NCBI GenBank assembly: GCA_003167365.1
Contig: PMTM01000006.1
Location: 144,391-208,390 of the forward strand
Length of the DNA: 64,000 nucleotides
Source: Spartobacteria bacterium
Lineage (GTDB): Bacteria > Verrucomicrobiota > Verrucomicrobiia > Chthoniobacterales > UBA10450
Direction of reading: 5' to 3'
Part shown: piece by piece, positions 33,823 through 40,785 of the stretch
Numbering within the stretch: position 1 is the stretch's first letter
Layout of the letters: every line of letters begins with the position of its first letter
Position numbers and translations under genes: made by a program
The notes under the pieces: model-generated
What the model was told of the DNA's origin: nothing
What the model saw: the letters and a program-made list of their open reading frames with translations, nothing else
Databases searched by the model: none

Positions 33823-33872
33823 TGGTGGCTGTCCTCAGCCGCAATTTTTAAGGGATCTACGCGCCGCTACAA
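33818..33872. repeat. Palindromic repeat, copy E, between convergent genes
   Basis: TGTAGTGGTGGCTGTCCTCAGCCGC on the left, GCGCCGCTACAA on the right. Its left TAG ends the plus-strand glycosyltransferase and its right arm, read on the minus strand as TTGTAG, ends the neighbouring gene. Confidence 0.85.
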
Positions 33873-34901
33873 TTTCGCGAAGAAGTTCGCAAATTGCGGA
33901 CGAATAGCTTGAAACGAAAGCCGTTCCATTGCGCGCCATTGTGTTTCTAGGACAAGCGTGGCGCGCCGGTTCGTATCGTTGAGCAATCCGGACGCGATCG
34001 CGGCCAGTTCGTTAGTCGTGCGCCCCTCGCCGCAGGTTTGTGGGAATGCCATTCGGTCAATCGCACCGTCGCCACCAACGCAAATTGTCCGGCAGAGAAG
34101 CGCATCGCCCGCCACCTGACCGGGCACACGGCTGCGATCCAATTGGAAAACGATCTTGTGCCGGGCGACTTCGCGCAGGTAATCGACGTACGGCATTCGT
34201 TTCTCGATCACGCGCAGTTTTCCATTTGGAAATTTTAGTTCGGCAAGAAGCTGCCTTCCTTTTCGTCCATCAAGATTAAAAACAGTCACCCGCTCGCCGG
34301 TAGCCTCGCAAAGCCGGCGGCTGACCAGCAGCGTGGTGGCGTGATTGCGCGACGGCACCTTCCACTCGCGGGTGCCGACAAGAATCCCGGCATGTTGATT
34401 TGGCGGAACTGTGAAATTCCATTGTCGATCTTCCAGCGGATAGGGAGTCGGAATAAAAGCGACGGTGGATGGATTGCTCTTCGATCGCGCTTGCTGATAA
34501 ATCTCCGCCGCTTCCGGGGTGCTCGCGATGCAACCATCCGCCTTCGCTATGATTCGCAAAAACCGGGAAAGTCTTGCGCGATCGCTCAGTTGTTGCGCGA
34601 TTTGATGAAGGCCAGTCTCTTTTAATGAGACAACGACTCTGCATTTGTTTTTCTTGAGTTCCTCCAAGGCCCGCTCACTGGCCTTGAAATCGCCGCGCAA
34701 CAACAGAAGGACAGCGCTGTTTTCGGCGACGGCCTGCTTTGTGTCGCGATGGAACGATCCGTTCGTGCAAGCCGCGTAGGCATGGAAATTTACGGGCGCG
34801 TGCCCGATTGCTTCGCCGGCTTCGCGAAAACTCTGCGCCACGTCTCGTCCACCCGGGTTGAGGACGGTCAACCGAAATTGTGCTTCGCCACTCGACGTCA
34901 T
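33867..34901 (-). CDS. Putative glycosyltransferase (GT-B-like)
   Basis: 344 residues without signal peptide or membrane helix. The N-terminal half has LTVLNPGGRDVAQSFREA and a Rossmann-like alternation (AVLLLLRGDF, RVVVSLKETG). The second half, with HKIVFQLDRSRVPGQVAGDALLCRTICVGGDGAIDRMAFP, resembles the donor-binding domain of GT-B enzymes where glycosyltransferases carry EAxxxG. Family assignment is tentative. It overlaps the PBP gene by four bases (ATGA), so the two are translationally linked and may both serve envelope assembly. Confidence 0.6.
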   Translation of the reverse strand: MTSSGEAQFRLTVLNPGGRDVAQSFREAGEAIGHAPVNFHAYAACTNGSFHRDTKQAVAENSAVLLLLRGDFKASERALEELKKNKCRVVVSLKETGLHQIAQQLSDRARLSRFLRIIAKADGCIASTPEAAEIYQQARSKSNPSTVAFIPTPYPLEDRQWNFTVPPNQHAGILVGTREWKVPSRNHATTLLVSRRLCEATGERVTVFNLDGRKGRQLLAELKFPNGKLRVIEKRMPYVDYLREVARHKIVFQLDRSRVPGQVAGDALLCRTICVGGDGAIDRMAFPQTCGEGRTTNELAAIASGLLNDTNRRATLVLETQWRAMERLSFQAIRPQFANFFAKL

Positions 34902-37480
34902 CGCTGGTCGTCGTTGTTTGGTGGTGGAGTGGTCGATTCCAAAAGCGTTCCGTCCTTTATTTCGTCGAGCGGTCCAACCGGCACGGCCTTGCGAATCTCG
35001 ACCGGTTCTTCCGGCTTTTCATCACCCGGCGCGACTGGAATCGCTTTTGGGATCGACTCCGAATCCGGCGTCACCGGCTCCGCTTTTTTTATTTCCACAG
35101 TTTTTTCAACCGCGGCCTTCTCCGCTGTATCTTTTTCAGGTTCGGGTTGCGTCTTAATATTTGGCCTTGCCGAATTGTAGGGGTCCTTGTCCGCCAGGAG
35201 TGTGGGCGTTTTCATGATCACTGGCGTGACGTCGTTGAGATCGACGGCAAGCGACGCGCGCGGAAATTCTGCCGCCGGCAGCTCGCGGGCAAGGCGGGCG
35301 CGAGGTTCGCCGTGAATGTTGCACGGCTCGGTCGGCGCCTGCGCGGCGGTGGCAATTTCTTCGTAGGTGGTGCGCCGCTGCACGATCTCGCCAGTGGCGC
35401 TTTTCACGGCGTCGTAGCATTTGTCCGTGGCCAGCAGACCCGATCTCGAACAAATCTCGATATTCTCGAGGCCGGCCGGTTGCTTGAATTCTCGTGGGGG
35501 ATATTGCTCGGCCGCGACATTCATGATGTCGACCCATATCGGCAACGCAATTTCACGACCGAACGCGGCTCGATAAATCTTTTGCGGCTTGTCGAAACCG
35601 GCCCAGACCGCACAGGTAAAATTGCTGTCGTAACCGGCAAACAGCGCGTCGGTGAAATCGTACGCCGTCCCGGTTTTTCCGGCTGCAGGAATTTTCTTCA
35701 GTCCGAATTTCGTGTGTGCATCTTTTCCGGTTCCAGATTCAAGCGCGTCGACCAAACAGGAATGAACTTCGTAGGCGGTCTCCGGTTTTATCACGGTTTG
35801 TCGGCCGCGATCGTGTTGTGCGTCCCAAACGATATTGCCGTCCTTTTCGTCGATCCGTTCCAGAATGTGCGGCGCGTTTGGCCGCCAGCCGCCATTCGGG
35901 AAAATCGTGTAAGCCATCGCTAATTCGGAGAGCGTGATTTCGCTGCTGCCAAGAAATGTCGCGGGATAAGGCCGAAGTGCGGAACGAATTCCAGCCGAGC
36001 GACAAAGTTGCAAGACGTTGTCGAGACCGGTGTCCATGCCGATGCGGACGGTCGCACCGTTCTTTGATTTGGCGAGCGCCTGCCGGGCGGTGATCGCGCC
36101 TTCGTAACGGTTCTCTTCGGTTTCCGGACCCCATTCGCCAAGAATTCCGGTCGTGCCGCCAATCATGACCGCGCGATTATCGAGCGCGGAATCTTCCACC
36201 ACCGAACCCGGATACATTCCATCTTCGAACGCGGCCGCGTAAACGAATGGCTGCATCGCGGTGCCGGCGGGACGCTTCGCTTGAAGCGCGCGATCGTATT
36301 GATTGTGCTCGAAGTCGCGTCCACCGACTAGCACGAGAATGCCGCCGGTCTCATTGTCGAGGCCGATGACCGCGCCCTGGAGATATTCGGGCGCCGGTTG
36401 GCCCGACATCGTTCCGCTCGATTTCGCTTTACGAAAATTCGCCGCGTACTCGGCGTAAGTTTGATGATTGTAGCCGGGATGTTGTTCGGCCTCATCGAGA
36501 TGCTTGCGCACCGAATCCTCCGCTGTTTTCTGAAGATTCGCGTCGATTGTCGTATGAATGCGGAAACCTTCGTTCATAGCGCGATCCCACCCGACCGCGG
36601 CGATGACTTGCTGGCGGATGTAATCGACTGCGTAGGTTTGGCCCTGCGCATTTTGGCGGCTGCCGGTCGCCATCTCTTCGGCTTGCGCACTGGCGCATCG
36701 ATCACCACCGATTAAGCCGAGATCGCGCATCCGGGTGAGCACGTAATTCCGCGCTTCACGCGACGCGGCCCGATCGCTCCACGGCGACAATCGATTCGGG
36801 CTCTTGATCAAGCCCGCGAGCGTGGCGCATTCCGTCAGCGACATTTCGCGCGCCGGCTTGCCGAAGTATCCCCGCGCCGCCGCCTCCGCTCCGTAAAGGC
36901 CGCCGCCGAAATAAATGCGATTCAAATAGAGCTCCATGATTTTCTGTTTGCCGAAGATTTCTTCGATCCGGCGCGCCACAAAAATTTCGAGCAGCTTGCG
37001 CCGAAAAGTTTTCTCTTTGAGCGCGAAACTGTTGCGCGCGAGCTGCTGCGTAATCGTGCTCGCGCCTTGCCGCACATGGCCGGCCGTCAAGTTTTTCAAA
37101 GTGGCGCGAGCGATTCCGAACAAATCGTAGCCGCCGTGCCGGTAAAATTTCGCGTCCTCCGCCGCCACCACCGCGTTCACAAGATCGCGCGGCAATTGGT
37201 CGTACGGAATGGTCTCGCGGTTCTCGACGTAGATTTGGCCGAATATTTTGTCGTTCCGATCGAGAATGACACTGGCCGATTCCATCTGCTGGAGTCTGCT
37301 TAAATCGAGAGCGGCAGCCTCGTTTTTGAGACCGGAAGCGAGAATGGAAAAATAAATCGCGAGCGCGACAACGAACGCTGCCACAATCGCCGCTGGAACA
37401 TAGACGCGGGCCTCGGCGTACCACCGCCGTCGAAAGCGATAACCGGGTGGCGGTGCCAGATATGTGTTGGGCTTTCTCAA
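34898..37480 (-). CDS. Class A penicillin-binding protein with altered transpeptidase motif
   Basis: 860 residues, inner-membrane anchored by a helix at about 28-50. The GT51 glycosyltransferase domain (about 60-245) is intact: AAEDAKFYRHGG with the catalytic Glu, GASTITQQLARN, and KQKIMELYLNRIYFGGG. In the transpeptidase domain (about 350-690) the catalytic SxxK is replaced by Thr407-Ala-Met-Gln410 (AGTAMQPFVYAAAF), while SKN (472-474) and KTG (602-604) remain. Standard D,D-transpeptidase chemistry therefore looks unlikely, though glycan polymerisation should work. A Pro/Glu/Lys-rich tail of about 100 residues ends the protein. Confidence 0.9.
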   Translation of the reverse strand: MRKPNTYLAPPPGYRFRRRWYAEARVYVPAAIVAAFVVALAIYFSILASGLKNEAAALDLSRLQQMESASVILDRNDKIFGQIYVENRETIPYDQLPRDLVNAVVAAEDAKFYRHGGYDLFGIARATLKNLTAGHVRQGASTITQQLARNSFALKEKTFRRKLLEIFVARRIEEIFGKQKIMELYLNRIYFGGGLYGAEAAARGYFGKPAREMSLTECATLAGLIKSPNRLSPWSDRAASREARNYVLTRMRDLGLIGGDRCASAQAEEMATGSRQNAQGQTYAVDYIRQQVIAAVGWDRAMNEGFRIHTTIDANLQKTAEDSVRKHLDEAEQHPGYNHQTYAEYAANFRKAKSSGTMSGQPAPEYLQGAVIGLDNETGGILVLVGGRDFEHNQYDRALQAKRPAGTAMQPFVYAAAFEDGMYPGSVVEDSALDNRAVMIGGTTGILGEWGPETEENRYEGAITARQALAKSKNGATVRIGMDTGLDNVLQLCRSAGIRSALRPYPATFLGSSEITLSELAMAYTIFPNGGWRPNAPHILERIDEKDGNIVWDAQHDRGRQTVIKPETAYEVHSCLVDALESGTGKDAHTKFGLKKIPAAGKTGTAYDFTDALFAGYDSNFTCAVWAGFDKPQKIYRAAFGREIALPIWVDIMNVAAEQYPPREFKQPAGLENIEICSRSGLLATDKCYDAVKSATGEIVQRRTTYEEIATAAQAPTEPCNIHGEPRARLARELPAAEFPRASLAVDLNDVTPVIMKTPTLLADKDPYNSARPNIKTQPEPEKDTAEKAAVEKTVEIKKAEPVTPDSESIPKAIPVAPGDEKPEEPVEIRKAVPVGPLDEIKDGTLLESTTPPPNNDDQR

Positions 37481-39974: not shown

Positions 39975-40029
39975 TGTAATAACCACCGTCTTCGTTGCTC
40001 AATTGCGTAGGCCAGTTATCTTCGGCCCG

Positions 40030-40785
40030 ATGAAATTTTCCGTCATTCGCATTTTCTTTCTGCTCCTAACGTTGCCGGTCGGTGGGTTCGCGGCGAACAA
40101 CGTGGTGAATTTGTCGCATTACGATCTGATGCGGCCGGACTTCGCGGCCATGAAGAGTGAAGGCATCCTGGGCGTGATTCATGAGGCGAGCTATCCACGG
40201 CTCGAGCGCGATGGCTATTACCACGACCGACACGCGGCCGCCGCGCGAGCGGGGTTGCTTTGGGGCGCGTATCATTATGGCGACAGCACAGATCCGGTTC
40301 GCCAGGCCGATCATTTTTTGCGCGTCGTTGGCTCGTCACTGTCGTATTCGGGCCAAAACGGCGTCCTCCTGGTTCTCGATTTTGAAAAGAACGGCCACTA
40401 TCCCGGCGGCACGATGCGGGTCGATCAAGCGGTTGCTTTCGTCGAACGCATTCGCGAACGCACCGGCAATTATCCCGGCATCTACTGCAGCGAATACCGC
40501 ATTCGCCAGGTTTTGTACGATCGAAAGGTCACGCCAGCGCAGCGGCGCGTGCTCGCCAATTGCTGGCTGTGGATCGCGAATTACCATTTTGCGCCGCGTA
40601 ACACGGCGCCATGGACTCGCTGGAACCTTTGGCAATATACCGGTGACGGTAAGTGCGATCTCCCGCGCGCGACCCATCCCAGAAGCGTGGCCAATATTCG
40701 CAAAGCCGAACGCAATATTTTCAGCGGAACCAACGCCGGATTGATTGCTTTCTGGCAGGCGAACGCCTGGCGGCTCCAACAATAA
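40030..40785 (+). CDS. Secreted GH25 lysozyme-like muramidase
   Basis: 251 residues with a signal peptide (1-18, cleavage after GGFA). The remainder is one GH25 (beta/alpha)-barrel: NVVNLSHYDLMRPDF near the N-terminus, GAYHYGDSTDPVRQADHFL, the acidic VLVLDFEKN strand with catalytic Asp-Glu, and LWIANYHFAP / WNLWQYTGDGKCD at the end. GH25 enzymes cut the beta-1,4 MurNAc-GlcNAc bond. A role in cell-wall turnover or attack on competitors is plausible. The ATG at 40030 is chosen because the signal peptide begins there; the frame is open to 40003. Confidence 0.9.
   Translation: MKFSVIRIFFLLLTLPVGGFAANNVVNLSHYDLMRPDFAAMKSEGILGVIHEASYPRLERDGYYHDRHAAAARAGLLWGAYHYGDSTDPVRQADHFLRVVGSSLSYSGQNGVLLVLDFEKNGHYPGGTMRVDQAVAFVERIRERTGNYPGIYCSEYRIRQVLYDRKVTPAQRRVLANCWLWIANYHFAPRNTAPWTRWNLWQYTGDGKCDLPRATHPRSVANIRKAERNIFSGTNAGLIAFWQANAWRLQQ

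Follow-up and report, generated by a model that had tools for sequence, protein, structure and literature searches.

A class A penicillin-binding protein homologue of Verrucomicrobiota with a threonine in place of the catalytic serine: a probable clade-wide pseudo-transpeptidase joined to an intact glycan polymerase

Class A penicillin-binding proteins (PBPs) are counted as polymerase and crosslinker at once when both of the corresponding Pfam domains are present, and the gene described here raises the question of what becomes of this assignment when the transpeptidase (TP) domain reads TAMQ at the place of the catalytic SxxK. The gene lies in the window (the whole stretch of DNA that was analysed, 64,000 nucleotides of contig PMTM01000006.1 from a Spartobacteria bacterium), with the following features:

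34898..37480, reverse strand: coding sequence for a protein of 860 aa homologous to class A PBPs, with TTG as the first start codon and TGA as stop (open reading frame list and translation)
37310..37411, reverse strand: predicted N-terminal membrane anchor helix, aa 24-57 (helix 24-57 of the AF2 model and hydrophobic sequence)
36728..37249, reverse strand: GT51 transglycosylase domain, aa 78-251 (Pfam PF00912, 206.9 bits)
35594..36376, reverse strand: transpeptidase domain (PF00905), aa 369-629 (Pfam, 69.3 bits; AF2; VIA-align)
36251..36262, reverse strand: TAMQ, aa 407-410, where the catalytic SxxK is expected (translation, phmmer alignment and family counts)
36059..36067, reverse strand: SKN box, aa 472-474 (translation and phmmer alignment)
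35669..35677, reverse strand: KTG box, aa 602-604 (translation and phmmer alignment; K602 and G604 invariant in the family)

The original prediction placed Thr407 and Gln410 at 36251-36262 and considered the SKN and KTG boxes and the GT51 motifs intact, and all of this stands. The coordinates are exact by codons: RPAGTAMQPF is encoded by 36274..36245 of the reverse strand (CGT CCC GCC GGC ACC GCG ATG CAG CCA TTC), Thr407 being ACC (36262..36260) and Gln410 CAG (36253..36251). In the phmmer alignment GTAMQPF falls onto GSSFKPF of the PBP1a structure 4oon, and the SKN and KTG boxes, both read in the translation, are in register with the SRN and KTG of that structure. The scores of the window protein for both Pfam domains exceed the curated cut-offs, and the GT51 landmarks E108, D109, H115, S141, Q146, R161, K162 and E165 are invariant in the 44 rows of the family alignment (A1). 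The NCBIfam PBP1A-family model (TIGR02074, PBP_1a_fam) accepts the protein despite the loss of SxxK (514.2 bits against a cut-off of 508.75). Membership of PBP1C (TIGR02073) is rejected at 321.5 bits against 494.2, and so is that of the monofunctional glycosyltransferases (TIGR02070) at 152.9 against 182.65, the TP domain being present. In the AF2 model pLDDT averages 81 and exceeds 90 over most of the TP domain, and VIA-align of this predicted fold gave Z values of 46-48 against PBP1a structures and of about 42 against PonA1 of M. tuberculosis (342 residues, 2.4 A). As far as the model can tell, the PF00905-domain fold is an ordinary one that has been retained.

A displaced SxxK elsewhere in the protein was also considered and rejected. 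The only other such tetrads begin at residues 49 (end of the membrane anchor), 323 (linker) and 809 (disordered tail), none of the three being conserved, and among the family sequences we found neither an alternative conserved SxxK within the TP domain nor any serine conserved in more than 95% of them.

The question then passes from the window protein to its relatives, which we counted in a set of 177 distinct sequences, paralogues included. Thr407 is carried by 152 of them. Among these 152, position 410 is occupied by L in 72, T in 34, K in 31, V in 5, F in 4 and I in 2, with Q, S, G and A occurring once each, so that conservation of T-x-x-Q in verrucomicrobial class A PBPs, raised earlier as something that an alignment would settle, was not borne out: Thr407 is the conserved feature and T-x-x-Q belongs to the window genome alone. 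The CAG of Gln410 differs by a single base from AAG (Lys) or CTG (Leu), the codons of its neighbours; the glutamine could be a private change or might even stem from an error in the reads, and the conclusion of a lost serine does not depend on it. That the motif as a whole is a sequencing or assembly error has in its favour only this private glutamine, and we give it a negligible probability; for Thr407 it is refuted, this residue being common to the 152 distinct sequences from many independent assemblies, isolate genomes included. The remaining catalytic positions are unevenly kept in the same sequences. S472 is replaced by Gly or Ala in 21, N474 by I in 29 and by D, T or V in 8 (37 in total) and T603 by G, P or N in 8, so SxN is frequently GxN or SxI and KTG is occasionally broken in relatives of the window protein. 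K602 (151/151) and G604 (150/150) are present without exception, T605 is nearly invariant, and a hydroxyl at 407, from Thr or Ser, is kept throughout the clade. Lys410 is retained in 31 of the 152, and 30 of these 31 also have S472 and N474.

The Thr form is widely distributed. Matches to the window protein were found in 82 of the 83 genomes of its own family, where every orthologue read has G-T-A-M/I-x-P. Across the order, orthologues of about 42-53% identity still have Thr407, the lysine position being occupied by K, T, L, V, I, G or A and SKN often reading GKN. The Thr form also reaches past the order into families f33 and f15 of its class, the f15 members showing further losses (GTAILPF, SKI, KTG). 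The family is further marked by a loop:

36122..36160, reverse strand: clade-signature loop, aa 441-453, GGTTGILGEWGPE (near-invariant among family members; AF2 and family alignment)

A scan of named genomes for signature patterns, among them GILGEWGxE, which the search tool picked, gave 464 relatives, and the 80 of these 464 that were kept belong to Candidatus Udaeobacter, other Chthoniobacterales/Spartobacteria, Verrucomicrobia and Chthoniobacter flavus Ellin428; nearly all have Thr at 407 and one has Ser. In a phylum-wide profile search, full-strength matches were confined to the groups named here, Akkermansia-type genomes included, and to their paralogues. In the f20 and f23 genomes of the same class (G213, G222, G228 and others) the window-protein query gave no class A PBP match or very weak profile matches, and several families of the class may be without class A PBPs.

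One member, L235 of genome G276, reads RPTGTAILPF. The GH20 enzyme of this genome agrees with the chain of PDB 7cbn over the stretch compared, and as 7cbn is a known A. muciniphila enzyme, we regard G276 as A. muciniphila type-strain-like. In G276 (loci L272, L282, L292 and L235) only three PF00905 proteins were found, namely a class B protein, a further class A protein and the putative pseudo-TP protein, and the genome has nine YkuD genes. Judged from the sequences, the Thr407 redesign appears long-standing and common to a verrucomicrobial branch that includes the gut bacterium Akkermansia.

In a maximum-likelihood tree of 132 rows the family forms one clade of 116 rows (SH-aLRT 100), which spans Chthoniobacterales, f33 and Akkermansia-type genomes and stands apart from the class A paralogues with SxxK that these genomes also encode. 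On a tree made after masking of the active-site columns, parsimony gave as the fewest changes 2 for the nucleophile (one loss of Ser and one regain), 8 for Lys410, 6 for S472, 7 for N474 and 5 for T603. The Ser-bearing genus g40 of family f6 (Chthoniobacter-type), with 8 rows of which 7 are SxxK, falls within the Thr clade. Its origin outside that clade is rejected by the AU test (p = 0.0003), in which a tree of 53 rows, computed under a model without mixture and constrained to keep the Thr rows together, was worse by 82 log-likelihood units. L221 (Chthoniobacter sp.), a second Ser-bearing member, has the clade signature as GILGEWGPE; it is outside the rows of the tree and its Ser would be an independent regain. 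Serine has returned in at least one lineage and probably in two. The Ser-407 members (L081, L117, L127-L132 and L221) have the motif GSAFKP, with GSAFLP in L132, and look like a reactivation of the transpeptidase active site. The tree suggests that Thr came first and that Lys and SxN eroded afterwards; reversion has been seen solely in Chthoniobacter-type members, in which the other catalytic residues mostly survive.

Because serine has apparently been regained, the 407 site would be repairable and the TxxK members may be near-functional; some of those with S472 and N474 may keep a slow activity with Thr as nucleophile. Taken further, the family could be a mixed one, in which TxxK members with SKN and KTG (Chthoniobacter-type) are weakly active D,D-transpeptidases and only lysine-less lineages, such as that of the window, are dead. 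The 30 T-x-x-K members with S472 and N474, Chthoniobacter flavus Ellin428 (L216) among them, are consistent with this, as is the fact that the Ser reversions adjoin TxxK members (g40 within f6, and L221 in Chthoniobacter sp.). However, Thr is kept in the lineages without Lys as well, and the eight changes of Lys are what would be expected if this residue had ceased to matter once Thr was in place, so that we hold a mixed family to be improbable, about one chance in ten.

The stepwise loss of catalytic residues could also be read as neutral decay of a TP domain that is no longer needed, and this reading is contradicted by the selection test. Median dN/dS (Nei-Gojobori) was 0.053 in the GT and 0.056 in the TP domain across 190 close Thr-type pairs, which are mutually non-independent, and this equality argues that the TP domain is not decaying and is being maintained. 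Frames are open class-wide, the fold is intact and the signature residues are near-invariant, and decay is in our opinion very improbable. The earlier argument against decay had been drawn from the preserved SxN and KTG boxes; its conclusion holds through the equal selection on both domains, but the boxes themselves say little, as the Ser or the Asn of SxN, and sometimes KTG, are missing from sister lineages. The signature loop GGxxGILGEWGxE (441-453) has AF2 pLDDT values below 50 at 441-445 and 447-449, and a loop that is near-invariant in sequence and poorly defined in the model suggests that a ligand or partner may hold it in place.

If the window protein does not crosslink, other enzymes would have to, as had been proposed from the motif alone, and this is plausible. 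Its own genome encodes six PF00905 proteins, three GT51 proteins and 11 YkuD genes, the PF00905 set being made up of three class B-like proteins (L001-L003, GSTFK), a canonical class A protein (L004, GSAFK), a PBP1C-like protein (L006, GSAIK) and the window protein. Between 7 and 18 YkuD genes are present in each of ten related genomes. With canonical PBPs and 11 genes of YkuD-type L,D-transpeptidases present, other crosslinkers are therefore available. For Verrucomicrobium spinosum, one report describes muropeptides of the canonical kind, with tetra-tetra and tri-tetra dimers, and finds class B PBPs to be essential; its available part is silent on class A active sites (PMC12283558).

Next to the PBP gene is a second reading frame:

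33867..34901, reverse strand: downstream open reading frame, 344 aa, no Pfam family, its ATG overlapping the PBP stop codon by 4 nt (ATGA)

A homologue of this frame adjoins the PBP gene in 108 of 130 loci of relatives; together with the ATGA overlap, this makes it probable that the two genes are translationally coupled and that the 344-aa product is a co-translated partner. Upstream, at a distance of about 2.5 kb from the PBP gene, a GH25-type lysozyme-like hydrolase is encoded at 40003..40785 of the window (forward strand), and a search for defence systems gave no match.

All these data are, we believe, best explained by an active glycan polymerase whose ancient pseudo-transpeptidase has been kept as a binding or regulatory module while crosslinks are made by other enzymes, and we consider this reading probable. 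The non-canonical and probably dead TP domain on an intact polymerase that was originally predicted is strongly supported by the family-wide conservation and the selection analysis. The membrane-anchored GT51 domain, with its intact motifs, would elongate glycan strands from lipid II. Ser407 changed to Thr once, at the base of the verrucomicrobial clade, after which Lys410 disappeared several times, followed by parts of SxN and, rarely, of KTG, while purifying selection kept the fold, Thr407 and the KTGT strand (K602, G604 and T605). Having lost the serine and, in the window protein, also the lysine, the TP-fold domain would no longer catalyse D,D-crosslinking. Its most likely role would be to keep stem peptides or partner proteins close to the polymerase, or to regulate the polymerase; such a role is suggested by the selection on the domain and by the retained Thr407, K602, G604, T605 and signature loop. 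The canonical class A paralogue, the class B PBPs and the PBP1C-like protein would supply the crosslinks, perhaps together with the many L,D-transpeptidases of the genome.

Against this explanation count the possible slow activity of members with Lys410, the regain of serine and the invariant hydroxyl at 407, which is more than a purely structural pseudoenzyme need require. This hydroxyl is the starting point of the main rival, a transpeptidase with Thr407 as nucleophile and with a different base, such as the invariant Lys602 of KTG; the enzyme would perform slow or altered acyl transfer or act as a carboxypeptidase, with low affinity for beta-lactams. The constancy of K602 and G604, the near-constancy of T605 and the strong purifying selection on the TP domain fit such an enzyme too. 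However, most members have Leu, Thr, Val, Phe or Ile instead of Lys410, whole lineages are without S472 and N474 and a few members without T603, and in SxxK acyltransferases the loss of the SxxK lysine, or a change from Ser to Thr, nearly abolishes acylation. Moreover, we know of no PBP that uses an arrangement of the Thr407 type, and a Thr-nucleophile enzyme is to our mind unlikely, if somewhat less so than a mixed family.

The reading of an active polymerase with a pseudo-transpeptidase can be extended to the whole clade, more tentatively and at slightly less than even chances: an ancient class of polymerases, including that of Akkermansia, in which the TP fold has become a non-catalytic stem-peptide-binding or regulatory module, which would make these polymerases intrinsically insensitive to acylation by beta-lactams, with occasional reactivation from Thr to Ser where the rest of the site was kept. 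If the TP domain is dead, polymerisation would be naturally uncoupled from crosslinking, Akkermansia would have a possible beta-lactam-indifferent polymerase, and the sequence of loss, ratchet and reversion would offer a natural experiment on non-catalytic uses of the transpeptidase fold. Targeted mutagenesis and transposon sequencing are established in V. spinosum (PMC12283558).

In the open papers searched, most subscription papers being outside the scope, we found none on point about verrucomicrobial class A PBP active sites, pseudo-transpeptidases or natural loss of SxxK in class A PBPs. The scattered SxxK losses of Streptomyces beta-lactamase homologues (PMC6273383) are a different case, and a census scores the class A PBP of Akkermansia as normal, its available part not mentioning a check of the active site (PMC8406291). 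What appears to be new here is a class A PBP with a putatively clade-wide pseudo-transpeptidase, for which the name penicillin-binding would as yet be premature.

Among known systems, the PBP1A family (TIGR02074; structures 3udi/3ue1, 4oon and 5u2g) shares with the window protein the membrane anchor, all GT51 motifs, the linker, the PF00905 fold (with Z values of 43-48) and the SKN and KTG boxes, whereas the window protein differs in having TxxQ for SxxK, the clade-specific GG..GILGEWGxE segment before SxN and a disordered C-terminal tail rich in P, E and K. The closest paralogue is the canonical SxxK class A protein of the L004 type (35-40% identity, same domain order), which accompanies the window-type protein in most of the genomes searched and has GSxFKPF, SRN and KTG intact but not the GILGEWGxE segment. 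PBP1C (TIGR02073, PbpC) has the same GT51 and TP architecture, but the window protein is far under its cut-offs and the PBP1C-like L006 of the same genome has GSAIKPF. Finally, the window protein would resemble a monofunctional GT51 glycosyltransferase if its TP domain is inactive, as it would polymerise without crosslinking; unlike those enzymes, it retains a full TP-fold domain under selection.
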